Shown piece after piece: positions 4,746 to 15,318 of a stretch of DNA of 64,000 nt. The notes below the pieces were generated by a model. That model was not told the DNA's origin and did no database searches. It was given only the letters and a program-made list of their open reading frames with translations. The stretch's first letter is position 1. Each line of letters starts with the position of its first letter. The stretch spans positions 479,906-543,905 of the forward strand of contig NZ_KB849786.1 of assembly GCF_000369045.1 (NCBI RefSeq), given 5' to 3'. This DNA is from Acinetobacter pittii ATCC 19004 = CIP 70.29 (GTDB lineage: Bacteria > Pseudomonadota > Gammaproteobacteria > Pseudomonadales > Moraxellaceae). The translations under genes were made by a program, and so were the position numbers.

Positions 4746-5447
4746 TTAAAGTGGAGTAACATGAAATAAAGAGCCGATCCAGCTTGAAAAGCCCATCGCT
4801 AAAATTCCCCACAAGGTAATGCGTAGACTCCCTTTAAGCTTGGAAGTACCTGCGAAATGACTTGATAGCGCTCCTAAAAAGGCTAATGAAATAATGCCAA
4901 ATATTAAGACTGTTTTTTCGATCCATATATCTGGACTGAGTAAAATAGCCAGCATAGGAAACAATGCCCCAAATGAAAATGAGCCAGCTGAAGCTAATGC
5001 GGCTTGAATAGGGTTTGCTGCGGTATTTTCATGAATACCAATTTCATCACGCGCGTGAGCCCCTAATGCATCATGATTTGTAAGTTCAGTAGCAACTTGT
5101 AGAGCTAAGTCAGGTGCTAAGCCTCTGGATATATAAATTTGGGTGAGTTCGTCCAATTCACGCTGCGGATGCTTTTTGAGTTCTTGTTCTTCAAATTTTA
5201 AGTCGGCTTTTTCAATATCTTCTTGTGATTTTACTGAAATATATTCTCCTGCAGCCATAGAGGTTGCACCAGAAATTAAACCAGCAATACATGCAATAAG
5301 AAGTGTATGAGCAGAAGCCCCACTTGCAGCCATTCCCATAATTAGGCTAGTAACAGAAATAATTCCATCATTTGCCCCTAAAACGGCCGCCCTTAACCAA
5401 CCTGAGCGGTGAATAAAATGATGTTCTGGATGCTGAGAAAAGGACAT
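4746..5447 (-). CDS. VIT1/CCC1 family Fe/Mn transporter
   Basis: Predicted inner-membrane iron or manganese transporter, 233 residues. The N-terminus has the family signature G-W-L-R-A-A-V-L-G-A-N-D-G-I-I, and S-M-A-A-G-E-Y-I-S-V follows in TM2. A charged cytosolic segment of about 60 residues (metal-binding helical region, many E/K) separates TM1-2 from the three C-terminal membrane segments, as in plant VIT1. A G-G-G-G-A-A-A-A-C purine run precedes the ATG. Bacterial members often relate to metal stress, but no Fur-like box was recognised upstream. It is divergent from the polysaccharide plus arm. Confidence 0.85.
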   Translation of the reverse strand: MSFSQHPEHHFIHRSGWLRAAVLGANDGIISVTSLIMGMAASGASAHTLLIACIAGLISGATSMAAGEYISVKSQEDIEKADLKFEEQELKKHPQRELDELTQIYISRGLAPDLALQVATELTNHDALGAHARDEIGIHENTAANPIQAALASAGSFSFGALFPMLAILLSPDIWIEKTVLIFGIISLAFLGALSSHFAGTSKLKGSLRITLWGILAMGFSSWIGSLFHVTPL

Positions 5448-5584: not shown

Positions 5585-5656
5585 ATGAACAATTTAAAGA
5601 ACTCATCTACTTATATAAACAGTGTCATTTATGGGTTTAATTATAATACTTATTGA
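5585..5656 (+). CDS. Candidate 23-residue leader peptide upstream of the polysaccharide plus arm
   Basis: A 23-codon frame (M-N-N-L-K-N-S-S-T-Y-I-N and onward, ending N-Y-N-T-Y) has a very good Shine-Dalgarno, AAGGAG at 5574-5579, five bases before the ATG. It ends with TGA at 5654-5656, 58 nt before the chosen start of the barrel gene. The peptide is rich in Asn and Tyr (5 N, 5 Y). Nothing in it identifies a function. It could be a translated leader controlling the downstream genes, the remnant of a longer gene, or chance in AT-rich DNA; the strength of the ribosome site argues against chance. Confidence 0.4.
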   Translation: MNNLKNSSTYINSVIYGFNYNTY

Positions 5657-5714
5657 TTAAATTTTAATTTGATTGCTACGCAAGCATTCTACCTATTTTA
5701 CTCTAGAGGTCCCA

Positions 5715-6932
5715 ATGAATAGCAAAACAATAAAATCTATAACCCGTTCCTTTATCGTTATTGGTTCGATCTGTCCAGCTTTAGGCCTCTTAAGTGTTGA
5801 GACTAGTTTTGCGCAAGAGATTGTTAATCAAGAATATAAACCAGGTAATCCAATTTATGATAAATGGGATCAATTTTATAAAATTGAAAAGACTCAACCT
5901 GAAAATGCCGAGAAGTTATTATTAGAACTTGGAGAGATGACACCACAAGATATTAAAGTATGGAAAAGTTTAACTTATTTACAGATTAGGTTAAGGAAAC
6001 AAGATGCTGCTTTGCAAAGTCTAAGAAAAGCAGAGGCATTAGATCCAGCAGATGATAATTTAAAACTCCAAGAAGCTTATCTACTGAATTCTCAAAAACA
6101 TAACAAAGAGGCTTTGGTAGTTTTTAAGGAGCTTACGCAATCTAAAGATGCGGATATTGCCAATAAGGCGACACAGGCCGTAAAGAATTTAAGTGGAGGG
6201 GAAGTCAAAACTTATTTCCGTGATGTGTATTTTGCACCTTCATATGAATCACGTTACGACGATGTAATTTTCCCACTTAAAGCTCGCTATGGTAAGAACC
6301 TCGATAATGGTCGAGCGCAGGTGTATGGCTTTTTAAATCTAAACCGCGATACTCAATCTCAAGGCGGAGTACGACCTGAAATTATTGATGAAAATGCAGT
6401 AACTCTAGGTGTCGGCGCTAATTATCAACCTTGGACTTCTATACCTGTACGCATGTATTTAGAAGTAGGTGGAAGCTATGATCTGATTGACCGAAATAGA
6501 GATAAATTTCGTGAAAGTGTTGTGGGTGGGATAGCAGGTTATCAAGAATGGTATTCTCAAAATAGTTGTAATCAGTCACTTTGTTTTAATGATTACTTCA
6601 CTGATTTATATGGCAATGCTGCGACTTATTCTAGAGAAGATTATAACGTTATTGGCGATTTACGCTTACGTACGGGTTTGAATGTCTATAAGGGGGAAAC
6701 GGGCACTGTACAGGCGTATATGAAATTGCATGGCTTAGCTGACAGTAAAGATGAGTATTACAATAATTTATTTGAATATGGCCCAGGTATTTCATGGCAG
6801 CCTTTTAATTATCAACCTATAAAATTACGTGTAGAACGACTATATGGCAATTACTTTAAAGATGTGCCAGTAAATACGAAAGATCATTACAACAATACTC
6901 GAGTAGAACTCGTTTTTTATAAGGATTTCTAA
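5715..6932 (+). CDS. TPR plus outer-membrane beta-barrel protein, NfrA C-terminus-like; predicted polysaccharide exporter
   Basis: 405 residues from the ATG at 5715, which has A-G-A-G-G-T five bases upstream. The longer frame begins with TTG. The first 33 residues are a signal peptide ending S-F-A before Q-E. Residues about 40-155 are alpha-helical with TPR character (A-L-Q-S-L-R-K-A-E-A-L-D-P-A-D-D-N). About 175-405 alternate polar and aromatic residues and end in Phe, as outer-membrane barrels do; this part resembles the C-terminal domain of E. coli NfrA, the phage N4 receptor. A scaffold plus barrel also matches the layout of PgaA and PelB. Only 1 nt separates it from wecB. The export role is inferred from architecture and neighbours. 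Confidence 0.72.
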   Translation: MNSKTIKSITRSFIVIGSICPALGLLSVETSFAQEIVNQEYKPGNPIYDKWDQFYKIEKTQPENAEKLLLELGEMTPQDIKVWKSLTYLQIRLRKQDAALQSLRKAEALDPADDNLKLQEAYLLNSQKHNKEALVVFKELTQSKDADIANKATQAVKNLSGGEVKTYFRDVYFAPSYESRYDDVIFPLKARYGKNLDNGRAQVYGFLNLNRDTQSQGGVRPEIIDENAVTLGVGANYQPWTSIPVRMYLEVGGSYDLIDRNRDKFRESVVGGIAGYQEWYSQNSCNQSLCFNDYFTDLYGNAATYSREDYNVIGDLRLRTGLNVYKGETGTVQAYMKLHGLADSKDEYYNNLFEYGPGISWQPFNYQPIKLRVERLYGNYFKDVPVNTKDHYNNTRVELVFYKDF

Positions 6933-6933
6933 A

Positions 6934-8076
6934 ATGAATAAAATTTTTATATCTATCGTATTTGGAACCCGTCCTGAATTAATCAAACTTGCCCCTGTGA
7001 TTTTATTGGCAAAACAAGACCCTCGCTTTCAAGTTGAAGTGATTTTTACTGGACAGCATGACGAACTAGTAAGAGATGCGATAGATTTCTTTGGGGTTGA
7101 AATTGACCACCGTCTTAAAATTATGAATGCTGGACAAAGTTTAAATCAGCTCTTAATTCATGGTTTGAGCCAAATCGAGAATGTGTACACTGATGGACAA
7201 AAACGAGATGCAATTGTTATTCAGGGTGATACAACAACTGTTTTAGCAGCTGGCTTAGTCGCGTTTTCAATGAAAGTTCCTGTTGCGCATGTTGAAGCTG
7301 GTTTACGTTCTTATGATTTAGATCATCCTTTTCCAGAAGAGGGAAATCGTCAGTTAGTTTCACGTATTACTAAATGGCATTTTGCCCCGACTGAACAATC
7401 AAAAAGAAATCTACTTAATGAACAAATTCCGCCAGAACTCATTACTGTTACAGGCAATACTGTTGTTGACGCTGTGTATTTAGGGCGTAAATTAATTTCT
7501 GAAAAATCTGATTTGAAGAACCAGCTTGAACCTTATGGAATTCAATTAAAGCAGGATGACAAAGTTGTACTTATTACTGCCCATCGTCGTGAAAACTTTG
7601 GTGGTGGAATTCAAAATATTTGTAATGCAGTTGAGCACTTAGCTCAAGCACATCCTGATTTACATTTTATTTGGCCTGTACATTTGAACCCGGCAGTACA
7701 TGATGTAGTCCATGATAAGTTTAAAGACCATTCCCAAATCCATCTTGTTAAACCATTAGACTACCCAAGTCTATTGGCAGTGATAGACCGATCGAATTTT
7801 ATTTTGACGGATTCGGGAGGCTTACAAGAAGAAAGTCCATCATTTAATAAGCCAGTTTTGATCTTGCGGGATACTACCGAGCGACCAGAAGTTGTTGAGG
7901 TGGGAGCAGGCGTTTTGGTGGGTACAAATCAACAAAAAATTATTGAAGAAGCTGAAAAGTTACTCACCGACCAACAGCATTATGAAAAAATGGCACATGT
8001 GGAAAACCCATTTGGCGATGGGCAAGCTGCTCAACGTATTCTCAATCAAATTGCTAAATCTTATGAATCGGCATAA
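6934..8076 (+). CDS. wecB: UDP-N-acetylglucosamine 2-epimerase (non-hydrolysing)
   Basis: Interconverts UDP-GlcNAc and UDP-ManNAc in the cytosol. 380 residues, normal for the family. F-G-T-R-P-E (10-15), Q-G-D-T (97-100), H-V-E-A-G-L-R-S (119-126), T-A-H-R-R-E-N near 213 and D-S-G-G-L-Q-E-E near 290 contain the known catalytic and UDP-binding Asp, Glu and His positions. It starts 1 nt after the barrel gene's stop, so the two are translationally coupled. Its last 16 bp overlap the end of the convergent hydrolase gene. Placed beside a glycan exporter and synthase, it suggests a polymer containing ManNAc or a derivative rather than a capsule housekeeping role. Confidence 0.9.
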   Translation: MNKIFISIVFGTRPELIKLAPVILLAKQDPRFQVEVIFTGQHDELVRDAIDFFGVEIDHRLKIMNAGQSLNQLLIHGLSQIENVYTDGQKRDAIVIQGDTTTVLAAGLVAFSMKVPVAHVEAGLRSYDLDHPFPEEGNRQLVSRITKWHFAPTEQSKRNLLNEQIPPELITVTGNTVVDAVYLGRKLISEKSDLKNQLEPYGIQLKQDDKVVLITAHRRENFGGGIQNICNAVEHLAQAHPDLHFIWPVHLNPAVHDVVHDKFKDHSQIHLVKPLDYPSLLAVIDRSNFILTDSGGLQEESPSFNKPVLILRDTTERPEVVEVGAGVLVGTNQQKIIEEAEKLLTDQQHYEKMAHVENPFGDGQAAQRILNQIAKSYESA

Positions 8077-8981
8077 TTATGATTTAAGGATCTCGTCTCA
8101 TTTATGGTTTTATTCGCATGACCATAAGTGAGGCGGTACCATAAGCTCACAATATTAACGCACCAGCGGCTCATGTAATGAGGACCATCAAAAATATAAA
8201 CAGTTTTACCTTCATATGCTTTTAGCTGAGAAATAATTTCCCAAGGGTATGCGGCTCTAAATTGCCCATTCTTTTTCACTCTAAAAGCTTCTAATACTAT
8301 AATTACTTTGTCTTTTCCAAGTTTATGTTCAAGCTGATCTAAAATATGTTTGGCTTGTTTAGGCGACCGAACGCCTACGCCAACGCCATCTTGGAAAAAA
8401 ACTCCCGTATGGTCAGGCAGCCAGCTTTTAACCCATAAATCATAATTTTCAGGCTCAGTTTCGCCACTATAAATACTCACCCAGACTGGTGAAGGAAGCT
8501 TCGATAACACATGACCTAAAGCACTGACTCGTAGCCAAGTTGGATCTGCTTCTACCGGAAAGTAATAACCTTTAAATGCTGTTTTTTGTTCTTTTATAAT
8601 TTGGGCAGATTTTTCGCCTAACTCAATGACATTAGCTCGAGCTTTAGGTTCATTATATTCACCGGCTAAGCCTAATATAAGATTTTTTGCCCAAGGTTCT
8701 TGTTTAATCTTTTCTAAATTAATAGCTTTTTCCCATTGAGGAAAATTTGATTCTTTCCACCAAGATTTAGATTCAACAACAGACCATTGAGGAACAAATG
8801 TATCGACACCTAAGTAGTGCCAATTTCCTTCTGGAGGAGTCGTGTTATTGTCAGGTTGCCAGAAAATGCCTTCAATATGAGGGGCTTGACCTTGATGTTT
8901 GAAAAGCCCCGCATATCCAATGACACTACATATAATTAAAATAATAAAAGCAGCTATTTTAATTGGTATCTGTTTTCTCAT
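8061..8981 (-). CDS. DUF4434-like TIM-barrel glycosidase-type protein, membrane-anchored
   Basis: 306 residues with one N-terminal hydrophobic segment (about 8-26) and the rest predicted periplasmic. The body resembles DUF4434-type TIM-barrel proteins, with conserved-looking acids in each strand: G-L-A-G-E-Y (E108), Y-Y-F-P-V-E-A-D (E144, D146), F-F-Q-D-G-V-G (D198) and V-L-E-A-F (E231). Such proteins are glycoside-hydrolase-like and sit in polysaccharide loci; YbcH beside E. coli nfrA/nfrB may be comparable. Trimming the nascent polymer is a plausible role. It overlaps the BcsB-like gene by 23 nt and is the last gene of the minus-strand operon. The family call is by resemblance only. Confidence 0.6.
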   Translation of the reverse strand: MRKQIPIKIAAFIILIICSVIGYAGLFKHQGQAPHIEGIFWQPDNNTTPPEGNWHYLGVDTFVPQWSVVESKSWWKESNFPQWEKAINLEKIKQEPWAKNLILGLAGEYNEPKARANVIELGEKSAQIIKEQKTAFKGYYFPVEADPTWLRVSALGHVLSKLPSPVWVSIYSGETEPENYDLWVKSWLPDHTGVFFQDGVGVGVRSPKQAKHILDQLEHKLGKDKVIIVLEAFRVKKNGQFRAAYPWEIISQLKAYEGKTVYIFDGPHYMSRWCVNIVSLWYRLTYGHANKTINETRSLNHNYADS

Positions 8982-10803
8982 TATTTCGTCTTAACCAGTA
9001 CCACAAGAAGATAATTATTATCATAATTGCAGAGATAATCACAACTAGTAAGAAGAAAGAAGACTGTTGAACTAGAGGCGCCTTTTGATTTCCGACAATG
9101 AGTTTTTGTAAAACATAGATATTTCCATTTTCTGAAACCAACATTTTCGTCACGTTGTTTGGAATTTTATGTTGTATTTTTTCCCAAAGGTGCATAAACG
9201 TTTGTGCGCCACCTTGTGAGTCGGTAATCACATCAAAGCGGTTATTGTTATAACTGACAATAAAACCATTTTGGGCAGCAGGTGCATAAATAATATCCTG
9301 ATGCATTAGTACTTGTTGTTGATAAATATCTTTGTTAACGCGGACATTTACGGATTGTGGCGCGCTCGGTGAATAACGGACTAGGTTGAGAGGCATTGGT
9401 GCTTGTGTTAAAAGCATTTTTTTCGCGGTTTGACCTAATACAATAGCGATATTTAACGCACCTGATTGATCATCAATCGCAATTGTAGGCGTCGTTGCTA
9501 AAGTCATTGAAATTGCGGCTACACCATTTTTGAGCTTATGAGGTAGCTTTACAGTAGACTTGGCTGTATCAATCCAGAGCGAACCATGTGCAGTGGGTAA
9601 ACACTGAGAGTTAGCAATCACCGAGTTTTCAAGCTTTAAACTAAAATTGGTCGTATTGGAAATAGCTTTTGCAAAAATGTTGAATTGTCGGTTTACAGGA
9701 TCGGAAGCAAGGTCGGCTGTTTTCATGCTTCCAGCAAGTCCTCCATCAATCCAAGCTGTAATATTGGAACCTTGTAATAAACCACTTTGAATACGAAGTG
9801 CGATTTGTCCTTGCAAGATATCGGTTGGTTGCCATACTGCTGGGAAATCAAGAAATAAGTTTTTTTCAGCGTGATTTAATCTGAAGTCCTCAATGCCTAA
9901 ATCGGCAAGTGTGTTGATTTTTTTAAATTGTGCCCAAGTTGGGGTGGAGATTGTTGTGGGGAAAATTGCACTTCCTGTATCAAGTTGCTCTACGTATGAG
10001 GGATTGATTAGTCCATTTATGGCAGCAGTGAGTTCTTGTGGTGTGTGATAAGTAATTGAAAGAGTAGCCACTCCACCTGCTGGTTTTGCGATTTGTACTA
10101 GTGCTCCGCCTTTTAGTGGTGCTGCTGAGCGAATAACTTCAATAATAAAGTTTGTTTCAGGATTTAAATTGGTTTGTCCTGAATCAACCCATTCAACAGG
10201 TGTTATGGAGGTCCATGAACTTGCTAATCTGGCGAGCATGGAGGCTTCTATAATCTCTTTACGGTTGTATTTTAAAATACCAACAAATGGAGTAGGCCGT
10301 CTCGCTTGTGGGTTATATAAAGCATCTGGCAAATCTTTTAAGCGATATTCATTACGAATAGGTGTAAAGTCGAGCTGGGAATTACTTAAATAAGTTAGGT
10401 GATCAATATCTTCTGTACAGAATGTTTCTTTGGTTTGATTCAGCGTAGTCGGTTTCGCATATTGTTGAATAATAAAATCTAAACGGTGAAAACCACTCTG
10501 ACTTGCTGGAATATCAAATTTGACTTGACCATCCCCACTTAGGGTAGTGTTATAAATGAGTTTATCATCATATTTTACAAGTAAAGTTGTATCGCTTTCA
10601 GTGGAATAATCACTTGAAAATTGAATGTTTTGCCACTGGGCACCTTTGCCAATATAGAAAAAATGAGGCTCGACTGTGTATTTAGTAGAAGTACTAATAT
10701 CGTCCAGTTCCCATGTATACGCATGAGCAGACATGGCGAGCATAAGACTGGTGCTGGCAAGGAGCACTTGAGCTGTTTTGTAAAGATCAAAAGTCTTTTT
10801 CAT
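8959..10803 (-). CDS. BcsB-like periplasmic subunit of a polysaccharide synthase
   Basis: 614 residues: signal peptide ending S-A-H-A (about 28), a large beta-rich periplasmic region, and one C-terminal membrane helix (about 582-604) followed by a short basic tail. This is the layout of BcsB, which guides cellulose from BcsA across the periplasm. P-T-P-F-V-G-I-L-K-Y and the D-F-P-A-V-W strand region fit the BcsB jelly-roll/flavodoxin-like repeats, though the protein is shorter than E. coli BcsB (about 780 residues). Its ATG follows the synthase stop directly. BcsB was once called a c-di-GMP-binding protein; in cellulose synthase the binding is by the PilZ domain of BcsA, which is absent here. 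Confidence 0.72.
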   Translation of the reverse strand: MKKTFDLYKTAQVLLASTSLMLAMSAHAYTWELDDISTSTKYTVEPHFFYIGKGAQWQNIQFSSDYSTESDTTLLVKYDDKLIYNTTLSGDGQVKFDIPASQSGFHRLDFIIQQYAKPTTLNQTKETFCTEDIDHLTYLSNSQLDFTPIRNEYRLKDLPDALYNPQARRPTPFVGILKYNRKEIIEASMLARLASSWTSITPVEWVDSGQTNLNPETNFIIEVIRSAAPLKGGALVQIAKPAGGVATLSITYHTPQELTAAINGLINPSYVEQLDTGSAIFPTTISTPTWAQFKKINTLADLGIEDFRLNHAEKNLFLDFPAVWQPTDILQGQIALRIQSGLLQGSNITAWIDGGLAGSMKTADLASDPVNRQFNIFAKAISNTTNFSLKLENSVIANSQCLPTAHGSLWIDTAKSTVKLPHKLKNGVAAISMTLATTPTIAIDDQSGALNIAIVLGQTAKKMLLTQAPMPLNLVRYSPSAPQSVNVRVNKDIYQQQVLMHQDIIYAPAAQNGFIVSYNNNRFDVITDSQGGAQTFMHLWEKIQHKIPNNVTKMLVSENGNIYVLQKLIVGNQKAPLVQQSSFFLLVVIISAIMIIIIFLWYWLRRNNEKTDTN

Positions 10804-12054
10804 TTATTTTTTCTCCTTGCTACGTTCCGTTTTGTACCATTGAAGGGAGTTGCCCTGTATTTTATTTTTAAGCATGTCATATGCGGCTTTAAAAACAATA
10901 AATAGAAATATTTGTGAGTAACTTACGTAAGATAGAACTGAATAAAAGTAGAGTTCTGGTTTAACTTTTTCGAGTGAAAGCGTAAACCACATTTGTGCCA
11001 CATATAGGCAAAATGACAGTCCCCATAGAGTTGTGAATGGGCCTGGAACTGAAATACCCGCAATATCAAGTATGCCAAGGGTTAAGGTGATATGACTCCA
11101 GAATAAAGCGGGTACAAAAAGTATGTAGCACATGATGTTGTTAAGAATTTCAATTCCGATAGGAAAAGGCGTTCTTAATGCGACGGGTAAATATTTACGA
11201 GTCACATAAAAATTACCTTGGGTCCAACGTGAACGCTGTTTAACAAACACACTCAGAGATGGAGGATCTTGCTGCCAACCAATTGCATAGGGCACCCATT
11301 TAATCCGTTTTTGACCAATGAAAATCCTAAAACTCATTTCTGTATCATCGACCAATGACTTTTCATCAAAACTGCCTAAGGTTTCTAAAGCATCACGCCA
11401 AATCACATAGTTAGTACCCATTAATGTCGATAGCTCAAAACGTTGCCAACGACCGCCTTGGAAAATCCATTGGAAAAAGATGAACTCAATGGCAATAAAT
11501 CGGGTCAAAATACTATCTTGCCAATTACGTGTTCTTACTTTTCCATTAACGGCTACTAATTTTTTATCGGCAAGTAGGGTTTGAGCTAGCAAGCGAACAC
11601 AATCGGGTTCTGGTGTACTGTCTGCATCATAGACAACAATCAATTCGCCTCTAGCATGGGGGAGGCCATTATTAAGCGTTCTAGATTTACCTTTACCCCC
11701 CATTCCTTTAGGAACATTAACAATCTTTATGCAAGGATAAATTTTTGCCAAATTTTCGGCGATTTCTAGGGTGTTATCCTTTGACCCATCATTAATGAGT
11801 AAAACTTCATATGCTTCGGCTGGGTAATCTTGTTGAGCAATTGCATGCAAAGTATCTTCAATCACAACACCTTCATTATAGGCAGGGATCAAGACACTCA
11901 AAACGGGCCATCTCTCTGGTATTGGAAGGTTTTGTAACTCTTTTTCTGCTGTTTTTGAATATTTCCAAGCTTGATAACTTAACCACGCCCAAAATGCTTG
12001 TGGAATCCAAATCCCTAAAAATCCAAATAAGAAGAGAATATCAATGGGAGCCAT
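10804..12054 (-). CDS. Processive family 2 glycosyltransferase (polysaccharide synthase)
   Basis: 416 residues, inner membrane. N-terminal membrane segment (about 5-25), cytosolic GT-A domain, then several C-terminal membrane helices (about 300-400). The synthase motifs are present: I-P-A-Y-N-E, D-G-S, D-A-D (143-145), D-D-T-E (236-239, the TED-like base) and Q-R-S-R-W (273-277, the QxxRW motif of processive enzymes). The size is that of PgaC or hyaluronan synthase rather than BcsA, and no PilZ domain is present, so any c-di-GMP control must come from elsewhere. Partnership with a BcsB-like subunit suggests synthesis coupled to translocation. Donor sugar is inferred from wecB next door. Confidence 0.85.
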   Translation of the reverse strand: MAPIDILFLFGFLGIWIPQAFWAWLSYQAWKYSKTAEKELQNLPIPERWPVLSVLIPAYNEGVVIEDTLHAIAQQDYPAEAYEVLLINDGSKDNTLEIAENLAKIYPCIKIVNVPKGMGGKGKSRTLNNGLPHARGELIVVYDADSTPEPDCVRLLAQTLLADKKLVAVNGKVRTRNWQDSILTRFIAIEFIFFQWIFQGGRWQRFELSTLMGTNYVIWRDALETLGSFDEKSLVDDTEMSFRIFIGQKRIKWVPYAIGWQQDPPSLSVFVKQRSRWTQGNFYVTRKYLPVALRTPFPIGIEILNNIMCYILFVPALFWSHITLTLGILDIAGISVPGPFTTLWGLSFCLYVAQMWFTLSLEKVKPELYFYSVLSYVSYSQIFLFIVFKAAYDMLKNKIQGNSLQWYKTERSKEKK

Positions 12055-12937
12055 TTGATTTAACCCTCCTGATAATAGACGAGATGAGCAAGACTAATAA
12101 AATCAACCCGATTACAAGAGAGAACCATGAAATATAGCTACCAAACGTACCAAGGAGGTCAGGGTAGGTACTCGTCAGAATTAGATCGAGTGGAACTACA
12201 ACACTACTTAAACCGATAAAAATGTATCCAAGGAAATTAGTTTTTACATGCTCTGGCGTACTTATGTAATTAATCTTATTAAATTTCCAAGATATTCCGA
12301 GTTGAGGATATCGAATATTTGTTGTGGGTAGATCAGCAGGAGGATTAATAATAATTTCATACCCAGAAATATGACCGTTAAAACGTTTAGCCGAATAAAA
12401 TAAATGCTGTTTTTGCTTAATTTCTCTAGAGGGTAACGGGAGCTGCGAAGGGTTAAATTGAATAATATAACTACCAGCGGTCTGTGAAATTAAATTTTCA
12501 TCCCATCCCGTTGAGACAAAAGCAGCCATTGGGCGCAACCCAATTGCAGTCGAAAATGTGGCTTTAGCCGCAAAATATTGAGGTTGCTCTGATTTATAAA
12601 GTGCAATCGGAATCGCACCTTGGCTGACTGCTTCTTTGAGCAAGAAATAATGAGAAAAGCTAAAAACTTCATCCGGCAATATAATGCCAGGCTTGAACCC
12701 TTTATGAATAAGTCGTTGAAAGCTATCCGAGCTGATCTGGTCAATTGTAAAGATAGGCCACCATGTATCCTGATATGGAAAAAACATTGAAAGATCATCG
12801 GTACTCTGAACTTCTGTTTTTGTTTGTTCCGTTTTAATCTCACAATGATAATATTGCCGATAGAACTGCTGTAAAGTGGCATCAGGATACTGACTAGATG
12901 CAATAATAATTCCACAAATATTAAGAAGATTAGACAT
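12041..12937 (-). CDS. Unknown protein of the polysaccharide locus, two C-terminal membrane helices
   Basis: I do not recognise this 298-residue protein. About 230 residues of mixed alpha/beta, soluble-looking sequence (G-I-I-L-P-D-E, G-A-I-P-I-A-L-Y patterns) are followed by two membrane helices near 235-256 and 268-290 and a basic tail, so most of it is probably cytosolic. No signal peptide or catalytic motif is clear. It overlaps the synthase start by 14 nt, and its ATG shares bases with the stop of the upstream gene (TAATG). This tight coupling on both sides implies a dedicated role with the synthase, perhaps an accessory subunit or regulator. Confidence 0.6.
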   Translation of the reverse strand: MSNLLNICGIIIASSQYPDATLQQFYRQYYHCEIKTEQTKTEVQSTDDLSMFFPYQDTWWPIFTIDQISSDSFQRLIHKGFKPGIILPDEVFSFSHYFLLKEAVSQGAIPIALYKSEQPQYFAAKATFSTAIGLRPMAAFVSTGWDENLISQTAGSYIIQFNPSQLPLPSREIKQKQHLFYSAKRFNGHISGYEIIINPPADLPTTNIRYPQLGISWKFNKINYISTPEHVKTNFLGYIFIGLSSVVVPLDLILTSTYPDLLGTFGSYISWFSLVIGLILLVLLISSIIRRVKSNGSH

Positions 12938-13680
12938 TAAGTAATCTCCTCTTCAGGTGGAATCTGAATAACTTTATATTCGACTTCAAGCCGCAAAGTC
13001 ATAATTTCTTTTAGCTTTTTAATAAATTCAGGTTCTTCATCCGTTTTTTGCTTGCGAATTACAATGCTGTATATAGTTTCAAGATCATCATCAGCAAACT
13101 GGAAAACGATTTCTTGTGGATGATGTTGGCTCAAAATTTTAATCATTTCATTTTGAGTGGTTTTCCACACATCGTCGCCTAACATTTCTTTAATTAAGCT
13201 TCGGTTGAGAATTCTAATTTCAAAGACTTCATAGTCTTGAATGTGATGATGATCAAGAAGCTTAAAGAAACTGCGTTGAAAATACTTGAGTGCGCTAAGC
13301 GGGAAAATATCACGGCGATAATTACGGTCATAACTTTGAATATCGCGGTATTTTTGAACGTTAATTTCAATATTATGGCGAACAGCACTCAGAAAAAGAG
13401 GAGTGAGGGGAATAATAAAAAGTAAAAGAAGCTGACGTTCAATATGCGTCTGAGCCCCTAAGTCGAGTAGAAAATATACTGCAACACCGATAAAAGCGAG
13501 TAAGCCCACAATTAAGGATGCACCAACTTGTAAAAAAGCTCCAGAAATTAAAAGAATGAGAATAAAAATCCAGCTTCCTCTAAAACTTACAGGCAACCAC
13601 TCATACGCCACCATGCCCATAAATAGATGAGCTGCGATAATCCATAAGACGAGTGTTCTTCCAGGGTTCTTTTGTTGCAT
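12937..13680 (-). CDS. Four-TM membrane protein with a degenerate GGDEF-like domain
   Basis: 247 residues. Four membrane segments (about 10-27, 34-52, 55-73, 82-100) precede a cytosolic domain (125-245) whose layout recalls a GGDEF domain: an L-S-A-L-K-Y-F-Q-R-S-F-F start, a G-D-D-V-W helix near 168-172, and F-A-D-D-D-L-E at 195-201 where GGDEF would be. The signature is lost and the inhibitory-site RxxD reads H-P-Q-E, so it should make no c-di-GMP and has no classical I-site. PelD has a comparable membrane plus degenerate GGDEF plan. It is the first gene of the minus arm and is well placed to control synthesis. The GGDEF relationship is inferred by eye. Confidence 0.55.
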   Translation of the reverse strand: MQQKNPGRTLVLWIIAAHLFMGMVAYEWLPVSFRGSWIFILILLISGAFLQVGASLIVGLLAFIGVAVYFLLDLGAQTHIERQLLLLFIIPLTPLFLSAVRHNIEINVQKYRDIQSYDRNYRRDIFPLSALKYFQRSFFKLLDHHHIQDYEVFEIRILNRSLIKEMLGDDVWKTTQNEMIKILSQHHPQEIVFQFADDDLETIYSIVIRKQKTDEEPEFIKKLKEIMTLRLEVEYKVIQIPPEEEIT

Positions 13681-13875: not shown

Positions 13876-15318
13876 TTAAATACTCTTGAAAGTTTCAATT
13901 GCTTTAAGACGAGTTTCCTTTAAATCTACAATTGGTTTTGGATAATTTAACTGAATATTCGTTTTAGTCGAGTAGGGCTCATGAATGGCTTTATTGTCTA
14001 GATGAGCTAATTCTTCAACCCATTGACGAATATAATCTCCATTTGGATCAAATTTCTTTGATTGAGCAATAGGGTTAAAAATTCTAAAGTAAGGTACGGC
14101 ATCAGTTCCGGTAGAAGCACACCATTGCCAGCCACCATTATTTGCTGCTAAATCCCCATCGATTAAATGCTCCATAAACCATTGTTCACCTACTCGCCAA
14201 TCGATGAGTAAGTTTTTACATAAAAACATAGCGGTAATCATGCGAACACGATTATGCATCCATCCCGTTTTTAAAAGTTGACGCATTCCAGCATCAATAA
14301 TCGGTATACCTGTCTGGCCCGTTTGCCATGCAATTAGGTGCTCTGGGTTGTGATTCCACTTAATTTTCTGAGTGTCTTTTTTAAACGGAATATGTTTAGA
14401 AACATGGGGGAAATCAAATAAAATATGTTGATAAAATTCTCGCCAAATGAGTTCATCTAACCAAGTCTGCTGGCCTTCATTTGTCAAATGAAAGTTGCCA
14501 TGTTCAGCCCTAAAAAGAGCTTGCAGGCACTGGCGGATAGACAAAATCCCAATGTTTAAGTAGGGGGAAAGTTGGCTAGTTCCTCTTACATTGGGAAAGT
14601 CACGTTCAGACTTATAATCAGATAAATGATCTTTAATAAATATGTCGAGCTGCTCTAGAGCAAAATTTTCTCCAGCTGGCCATAAGCCTTTTTGCTCTTT
14701 AGAAACAGAAGGATCAAAAAAAGCTTCAATATCTTCTAGAGTTAAGCTGTTTATTTTTGAAAAAGACGCTGGATAGCTACTTTGCTTTTCAGGAATTGGA
14801 TAGCATTGAGGTAAACCACTGATATCCAATTTTGAATAACATGCTTTTTTGAATGCACCGAAAATCTTGTAGGGCTGCTGTGATTGATTGCGAATAGAGC
14901 ATAAAGGAAAAATCGTACGGTCATGGAATAAAAAGAGCTCTTTACCTTGTTGATTTAAAAAATCTTGTACAGTTTTATCTCTTTTTAATTCATTAACGCC
15001 GATCTCTATATTTGAATAGACATTTTCAATATTAAGTTGAGTGCTAAGTTCACCAATATAATCAGCGATATCTTTCCAGTAAGGAATGACTTGGATAATA
15101 AGGGGAATATTAAGTTGTTCTAGTTCTTTTTTTAGTTGTTGAAGTTGACGTAAATAGAAATTAATTTTTATAGGCGCATCGTGATGCATTTTCCATTGTT
15201 CAGGCGGTAAAATAATTAACCCAATACAAGGCCCTTGTTGAGAGGCATGCCATAAAGCAGCATGGTCTCGAACTCTCAAATCTTGACGAAACCAAATTAG
15301 CTGATTTACGTTTGACAT
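13876..15318 (-). CDS. phrB: Deoxyribodipyrimidine photolyase
   Basis: Light-driven repair of cyclobutane pyrimidine dimers, FAD-dependent, cytosolic. 480 residues, usual for class I CPD photolyases. The N-terminal antenna domain starts W-F-R-Q-D-L-R-V-R-D-H. The C-terminal FAD domain has S-Q-L-S-P-Y-L-N-I-G, W-L-D-E-L-I-W-R-E-F-Y, G-W-M-H-N-R-V-R-M-I and D-G-D-L-A-A-N-N-G-G-W-Q-W, which includes the Trp of the electron-transfer chain. The antenna cofactor (MTHF or a flavin) cannot be told. It is a stand-alone gene with spacers of about 120-195 bp on either side. Confidence 0.93.
   Translation of the reverse strand: MSNVNQLIWFRQDLRVRDHAALWHASQQGPCIGLIILPPEQWKMHHDAPIKINFYLRQLQQLKKELEQLNIPLIIQVIPYWKDIADYIGELSTQLNIENVYSNIEIGVNELKRDKTVQDFLNQQGKELFLFHDRTIFPLCSIRNQSQQPYKIFGAFKKACYSKLDISGLPQCYPIPEKQSSYPASFSKINSLTLEDIEAFFDPSVSKEQKGLWPAGENFALEQLDIFIKDHLSDYKSERDFPNVRGTSQLSPYLNIGILSIRQCLQALFRAEHGNFHLTNEGQQTWLDELIWREFYQHILFDFPHVSKHIPFKKDTQKIKWNHNPEHLIAWQTGQTGIPIIDAGMRQLLKTGWMHNRVRMITAMFLCKNLLIDWRVGEQWFMEHLIDGDLAANNGGWQWCASTGTDAVPYFRIFNPIAQSKKFDPNGDYIRQWVEELAHLDNKAIHEPYSTKTNIQLNYPKPIVDLKETRLKAIETFKSI

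Follow-up and report, generated by a model that had tools for sequence, protein, structure and literature searches.

The closest described counterpart of the locus analyzed here is the phage glycan receptor (PGR) locus of Acinetobacter baumannii, pgrA–G, reported by McCalla et al. on 29 September 2025 (PMC12507263). According to the main text of that paper, PgrA has a diguanylate-cyclase fold without GGDEF, PgrC is a homologue of NfrB, BcsA and PgaC, PgrD is a BcsB homologue, PgrE resembles the C-terminus of PgaB, PgrF is WecB and PgrG is a putative porin; PgrB is not named there. Mutants in pgrD and pgrF were resistant to phage StAb3 and both were complemented in A. baumannii, and deletion of pgrD in strain MC47.2 abolished StAb3 adsorption. 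An exopolysaccharide containing N-acetylmannosamine (ManNAc) was proposed as the product, at least a partial locus was present in 958 of 994 complete A. baumannii genomes, and PGR was enriched in the A. calcoaceticus-baumannii complex. Our subject is a set of seven adjacent genes of Acinetobacter pittii ATCC 19004 = CIP 70.29, located at positions 5715–13680 of a 64,000-nucleotide stretch (contig NZ_KB849786.1, positions 479,906 to 543,905; the whole stretch is hereafter called the window) and arranged in two convergent arms, with two genes on the plus strand and five on the minus strand (Table 1).

Comparison with the published A. baumannii locus revealed the same seven functions in the same order, and no difference in gene content was seen; the identification was made by gene set, order and described functions, and not with the paper's own gene record (ABUS04_RS10855). 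The convergent two-arm layout and the flanks recur in a collinear A. baumannii record, whose seven proteins are 80–98% identical to those of the window. The window derives from a different species of the same group as A. baumannii, in which PGR is already reported in the main text of PMC12507263. The locus is already known, namely as pgrA–G of Acinetobacter, published in September 2025; the novelty claimed by an earlier reading of this DNA made from its letters (the sequence-only reading) does not hold, since the genes match this characterized locus. We consider it very probable that the window carries the PGR locus in the full sense, i.e. that it directs the synthesis of a surface polymer based on uridine diphosphate (UDP)-ManNAc, which is exported via PgrG and adsorbed by StAb3-like phages.

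The assignment of all seven genes, in both arms, to one polysaccharide pathway was borne out by a census of 175 Acinetobacter genomes, in which a pgrD match at E up to 1e-30 defined the PGR-positive ones (six of the 175 are less than 90% complete or more than 5% contaminated; all of the positives pass). The pgrD gene was found in 53 genomes, and a single gene order in all 53 loci: 38 read G-F-E-D-C-B-A, and the other 15 differ only in lacking pgrF. In every locus pgrG accompanies pgrA–E, and pgrG (with pgrF, where present) is opposed to them, i.e. the two arms co-occur across genomes as had been anticipated. In Lampropedia hyalina DSM 16112, which lies outside the Moraxellaceae, the seven genes are co-directional, in the order G-F-A-B-C-D-E; this single run argues that the two arms form one functional unit. 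The Lampropedia PgrC is 75% identical, and its gene contains one in-frame stop in that record.

The WecB recognized by the sequence-only reading was confirmed: the window PgrF matched NCBIfam TIGR00236 with 438.5 bits (cut-off 210.15). If the polymer needs UDP-ManNAc, every PGR genome must carry WecB. With matches at E up to 1e-60 counted as WecB (weaker NeuC-like relatives, i.e. the match in genome G076 and the second matches in G005, G009, G055 and G095, remained uncounted), WecB was present in 53/53 pgrD-positive genomes versus 27/122 without pgrD (Fisher p 6e-25). The pgrF gene itself is absent from 15 loci, and in one more (genome G043) it is a nonsense copy with a stop after 80 codons. 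A second WecB is encoded elsewhere in all 16 of these genomes versus 6 of the 37 with intact pgrF (Fisher p 5e-9); with the G043 copy counted as present, the proportions are 15/15 and 7/38 (p 3e-8). The type-strain record of Acinetobacter baylyi (locus L137) contains all seven genes, and the genome assigned to it (G123) has a single WecB at E up to 1e-60; the environmental A. venetianus RAG-1 (L134) belongs to the pgrF-less species.

The distance between the pgrG and pgrE stop codons in the 15 pgrF-less loci is −4 to 98 bases, and the pgrF/pgrE overlap of the window forms one end of the stretch that is missing there. Genome G109 retains a 95-base remnant of pgrF, 94.7% identical to the pgrF of a sister species and counted as absent. 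This remnant and the nonsense copy show that pgrF was lost in G109 and G043; for the remaining pgrF-less loci, loss would follow from the tree of Pgr proteins, which requires nine pgrF changes, a number that stands when only well-supported branches are used. Among nine independent pairs, a second WecB went with the loss in 8.5 on average, the opposite was seen in 0 and no difference in 0.5 (sign test, median p 0.004, range 0.004–0.016). The other six genes are kept at full length in 14 of the 16 loci, as expected if the pathway still runs, and the remaining two have a broken pgrD.

The surroundings of one other WecB (13 kb) were inspected in each of the 15 pgrF-less genomes, with gene families verified on one representative per kind. 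The adjacent gene encodes a UDP-ManNAc dehydrogenase in 10 cases, a TviB-type dehydrogenase in four and neither in one; wza/wzc-type genes are present in 9/15 stretches and KpsM/KpsE-type capsule export genes in 3/15. The natural reading is that the epimerase of another surface-polysaccharide locus renders pgrF redundant. FnlC was rejected as the second epimerase: TIGR00236 was matched at E up to 1e-20 by all 17 proteins compared (PgrF together with the second WecB of G043 and of each of the 15 pgrF-less genomes), two of which scored above its cut-off, and no FnlA/FnlB-type neighbors were noticed by eye in the eight WecB stretches listed.

As WecB accompanies every locus of the census and pgrF is missing only from genomes that encode another WecB, the pattern supports UDP-ManNAc as the probable donor, and the ManNAc-containing polymer foreseen by the sequence-only reading is probable. 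What is new here is the comparative support for the donor sugar and an epimerase swap between PGR and other polysaccharide loci. No earlier report of this pattern for PGR was found; the main text of PMC12507263 was searched by terms, its supplement, a comparison of 20 locus compositions, was outside the scope of this search. The principle of a shared WecB is itself already published: in the portions covered here, a 2021 study of the Nfr system states that, where NfrB occurs and no other pathway supplies WecB, the latter is linked to nfrB (PMC8669469), and a further paper that wecB is the sole gene of its cluster needed for phage N4 (PMC8669472).

On the synthase side, Pfam families of glycosyltransferase family 2 (GT2) were matched by all 12 PgrC sequences, which have a mean column identity of 88% and share the invariant motifs D236 D237 T238 E239 (DDTE) and Q273 R274 S275 R276 W277 (QRSRW). 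The processive GT2 and the QxxRW motif of the sequence-only reading were recovered, but the TED motif is not present literally and reads DDTE. Its BcsB-like subunit agrees with the BcsB annotation of the A. baumannii PgrD orthologue, but this likeness is faint by sequence, with Pfam BcsB in one of 15 homologues (E 0.0017) and no match of the PgrD profile to PDB sequences.

PgrC is the sole glycosyltransferase detected by family searches among the seven proteins; its stronger solved relatives include cellulose synthases, and the weaker ones hyaluronan synthases. Hyaluronan synthase handles both of its donors with a single GT2 domain. These points, together with the fact that the census ties a WecB source to the locus and not UDP-ManNAc as sole donor, favor a heteropolymer in which ManNAc alternates with N-acetylglucosamine (GlcNAc) or another sugar. 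Against it stands the lack of sugar-nucleotide names among the flanking genes of the collinear A. baumannii record, a weak argument, because UDP-GlcNAc is made by every cell and these are the flanks of one record. We regard a heteropolymer as possible, though unlikely. It is much harder to credit that PgrC makes a GlcNAc polymer, similar to poly-GlcNAc (PNAG) or chitin, with PgrF serving another, merely linked pathway: PgaC is indeed the nearest NCBIfam model of PgrC (E 1.3e-41), but its score of 142.9 bits is one third of the cut-off (422.3), and both the census (WecB in 53/53 versus 27/122, no loss of pgrF without a second WecB) and the StAb3 resistance of the published pgrF mutant (PMC12507263, main text) speak against this reading.

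The Nfr (NGR) system of Escherichia coli shares with PGR a GT2 synthase, a TPR outer-membrane protein, a DUF4434-type protein, dependence on WecB and use as a phage receptor. Searches with E. coli K-12 nfrB, nfrA and ybcH as positive controls revealed NfrA_C in none of 15 PgrG sequences (E. coli NfrA, E 9.7e-68) and MshEN in none of 12 PgrC sequences (E. coli NfrB, E 3.8e-14). TPR_19 and TPR_14 were found in 15/15 PgrG homologues at E up to 0.1, and the signal peptide and barrel of PgrG were judged by eye and from the main text of PMC12507263, not by a prediction program. Profile comparison of PgrG with NfrA C-termini was negative, and whole PgrG and NfrA profiles gave only a weak TPR alignment (probability 6.6%). 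The similarity of PgrC to NfrB is likewise weak (BLASTP E 4e-4) and confined to part of the GT2 domain. PgrE aligned with E. coli YbcH (hhalign probability 94%, E 1.5e-7); DUF4434, correctly predicted for this protein, was matched by 12 of the 14 homologues searched (E up to 0.1), with the window copy at 23.6 bits under the Pfam cut-off of 30 (YbcH control, E 1.5e-69), and the PgrE profile gave nothing useful against PDB sequences. PgrE is the sole clear relative, of YbcH. By these searches PGR resembles Nfr in its working but fails two Nfr-defining features, and it has in addition the BcsB-like PgrD, PgrB and PgrA, no genes for which stand alongside nfrBA-ybcH in E. coli. Because NfrA_C and MshEN are absent and the controls were positive, the NfrA-like export of the sequence-only reading and Nfr orthology were rejected, and an orthologous Nfr system under control by cyclic diguanylate (c-di-GMP) is the most improbable of the alternatives, the YbcH-like PgrE and the shared WecB dependence and phage-receptor role notwithstanding.

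The pgaABCD system of PNAG has in common with PGR a GT2 synthase (nearest PgaC), a TPR outer-membrane protein and, following the main text of PMC12507263, the resemblance of PgrE to the PgaB C-terminus. It differs in that both its PgaC and PgaA models score far under their cut-offs (PgaA porin equivalog, 15 bits versus 366.65) and in the tie of PGR to WecB; a family search of the seven proteins gave no match to deacetylase families. With bcsABC of cellulose PGR may share a BcsB-like partner of the GT2 synthase, and the degenerate GGDEF protein PgrA recalls BcsE of the cellulose system. PGR is distinguished by its WecB tie and by PgrC, as PilZ was matched by 0/12 sequences; the family search of the seven proteins gave no match to BcsZ or BcsC families. 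Membership in the PNAG and cellulose systems was rejected on the basis of the PgaC and PgaA scores and the PilZ result, respectively, in agreement with the sequence-only reading.

The degenerate GGDEF-like nature proposed for PgrA was supported by its AlphaFold2 model (mean pLDDT 82.3), in which the GGDEF fold spans residues 118–241; the best structural match was 4urg, with Z 10.5 at 2.9 Å over 119 residues. The matches shown were mostly GGDEF proteins, and Foldseek alone likewise returned cyclases (best E 1.6e-3). None of 31 PgrA homologues has the GG(D/E)EF signature, the position reading INEEL, ADDDL or similar, or an RxxD I-site within 16 residues ahead of it; PgrA was on these grounds rejected as an active cyclase or I-site c-di-GMP receptor. 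Given this motif loss and a PgrC without PilZ or MshEN matches, the sequences give no support for canonical c-di-GMP control of PGR. Approximately 11 kb before the window, a 529-amino-acid frame contains a GGDEF domain above the Pfam cut-off (G000:C2:468382-468825), the nearest of ten GGDEF domains that the genome has besides PgrA; this protein is a possible c-di-GMP source, unlinked to the locus.

In the PgrB model (mean pLDDT 84.6), two C-terminal helices follow a soluble domain. Foldseek gave no match at E 0.001 or better (best E 0.044). The top VIA-align match was the polysaccharide deacetylase 3rxz (Z 9.7, 3.2 Å over 159 residues), followed by 1k1x (Z 8.4), which we take to be a GH57-type enzyme, chitin deacetylase 2vyo (Z 8.2) and then mostly other barrels, in a method in which a best Z of 7 to 8 is common without relationship; absence of a family from such fold look-ups excludes no family. 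A PDB match of the PgrB profile at 1.4e-6 was set aside, as it covers just 19 residues of a designed repeat protein. The best-conserved His columns of PgrB are occupied in 26 and 25 of 34 sequences, and because no His is conserved in more than 26/34 homologues, a deacetylase-like PgrB would probably be without the usual metal site. Judging from the model, kinship to CE4 polysaccharide deacetylases is a weak lead. Pfam returned scattered weak matches only for PgrA and PgrB.

From the gene set, its conservation, the PgrA fold, the tie to WecB and, more weakly, the PgrB fold, all observed here, we infer the polymer chemistry and a working state of the window locus as follows: (i) PgrF would make UDP-ManNAc, (ii) PgrC would polymerize it at the inner membrane, presumably helped by PgrD, (iii) PgrE may act on or guide the polymer in the periplasm, (iv) PgrG would export it through the outer membrane, and (v) StAb3-like phages would adsorb to the polymer at the surface. 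PgrA, which lacks both the cyclase signature and the canonical c-di-GMP site, and PgrB may be membrane-anchored scaffold or regulatory proteins. A bolder reading, which we offer tentatively and think rather doubtful, is that PGR represents a third, Nfr-independent class of synthase-dependent ManNAc polymers drawing on a UDP-ManNAc pool in common with other surface polysaccharides. PgrB, with a deacetylase-like fold but without an invariant metal His, and the hydrolase-like PgrE would then correspond to a PgaB divided over two proteins and without deacetylation, and PgrA would be a GGDEF scaffold that has lost nucleotide binding, so that c-di-GMP would not govern polymer synthesis.

Several observations weigh against the view that the window locus is a PGR locus making a UDP-ManNAc-based receptor polymer. 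Its equation with PGR depends on gene set, order and description rather than on the sequence of ABUS04_RS10855, and no glycan structure of the polymer was found in the literature. The model nearest to PgrC, PgaC, belongs to an enzyme making a GlcNAc polymer, though the score is far below the cut-off, and the fold match of PgrB is weak. As regards the epimerase, six of 37 genomes keep pgrF despite a second WecB, and just 10 of the 15 other WecBs adjoin a UDP-ManNAc dehydrogenase gene. The tree reflects Pgr proteins rather than species, and Fisher's test takes no account of relatedness. Broken pgrC or pgrD occurs in 2/16 pgrF-less loci, and also in 2/37 others; because of the former, some pgrF losses may reflect decay of the whole locus, and polymer synthesis in pgrF-less species is predicted from their genes.

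Table 1. Genes of the PGR locus in the window (aa, amino acids; ORF, open reading frame)
Feature	Position	Strand	Description	Basis
pgrG	5715..6932	+	TPR region and predicted outer-membrane exporter, 405 aa	ORF
pgrF	6934..8076	+	WecB, non-hydrolysing UDP-GlcNAc 2-epimerase, 380 aa	TIGR00236
pgrF/pgrE overlap	8061..8076	.	16 bp, tail-to-tail	ORF coordinates, spacing in other loci
pgrE	8061..8981	-	DUF4434/YbcH-like, probably periplasmic, 306 aa	Pfam, hhalign
pgrD	8959..10803	-	BcsB-like synthase partner, 614 aa	Orthologue annotation, Pfam, PMC12507263 (main text)
pgrC	10804..12054	-	Processive GT2 synthase, 416 aa, without PilZ or MshEN match	Pfam, motifs
pgrB	12041..12937	-	Soluble domain and two C-terminal helices, 298 aa	AlphaFold2 model
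pgrA	12937..13680	-	N-terminal helices and degenerate GGDEF-fold domain, 247 aa	AlphaFold2 model

The start of pgrG is an ATG within the listed ORF 5673–6932. The locus is flanked by a VIT-family gene (4746–5447) on one side and a photolyase gene (13876–15318) on the other, both named after the collinear A. baumannii record. Family searches of the seven proteins gave weak TPR matches for PgrG, nothing for the two membrane proteins and nothing convincing for the BcsB-like protein. A promoter and terminator scan gave hits no more numerous than in shuffled sequences, and tRNA and Rfam scans of the window gave no match.

In a family-level search, PgrC matches at E up to 1e-120 occurred in 46/299 genomes and 2/16 genera. 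A scan of genome contigs for two conserved PgrC peptides yielded, outside Acinetobacter, L. hyalina, one Moraxellaceae metagenome assembly and one distant GT2. The metagenome contig (JAUXVU010000018.1) carries two PGR loci approximately 16 kb apart; pgrE was matched by a 73-amino-acid frame in one of them and was not found in the other. A plasmid collection contained three records (A. variabilis, Acinetobacter sp. ACNIH1) with PgrD approximately 38% identical: NZ_CP083659.1 and NZ_CP026426.1, typed as mobilizable (MOBP), contain divergent loci with all seven genes, one of which has an IS5 transposase between pgrE and pgrF, and NZ_CP104652.1 is the third record. The locus is also present in CP040041.1 (A. 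baumannii VB958, 561 kb, filed as a plasmid), which is perhaps a piece of chromosome, because the neighbors of PGR there are the housekeeping genes dusB and PBP6B.

Degraded copies were also encountered. A remnant locus of A. genomosp. 15BJ (L151) contains only pgrA, pgrB and a shortened pgrC; genome G148, with a partial pgrC match and no pgrD, was counted as PGR-less and may be the same case. Natural breaks comprise a stop in pgrC (locus L043, genome G053), an interrupted pgrD (L059, G099), a shortened pgrD with extra DNA ahead (L060, G117) and a split pgrD (L068, G109). Phage selection against the receptor would fit such broken pgrC and pgrD copies.

Which strains of Acinetobacter can be infected by a phage group of broad host range is set by the PGR locus, and the pattern of pgrF loss supports UDP-ManNAc as the donor independently of the published mutants. 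It predicts that in several lineages receptor synthesis depends on the epimerase of another surface-polysaccharide locus; capsule switching could therefore alter sensitivity to PGR phages, which is a matter for the design of phage cocktails. If PGR does form a separate, Nfr-independent class of ManNAc polymers, its own epimerase would face competition from UDP-ManNAc-producing capsule loci and be displaced by them in the course of evolution.

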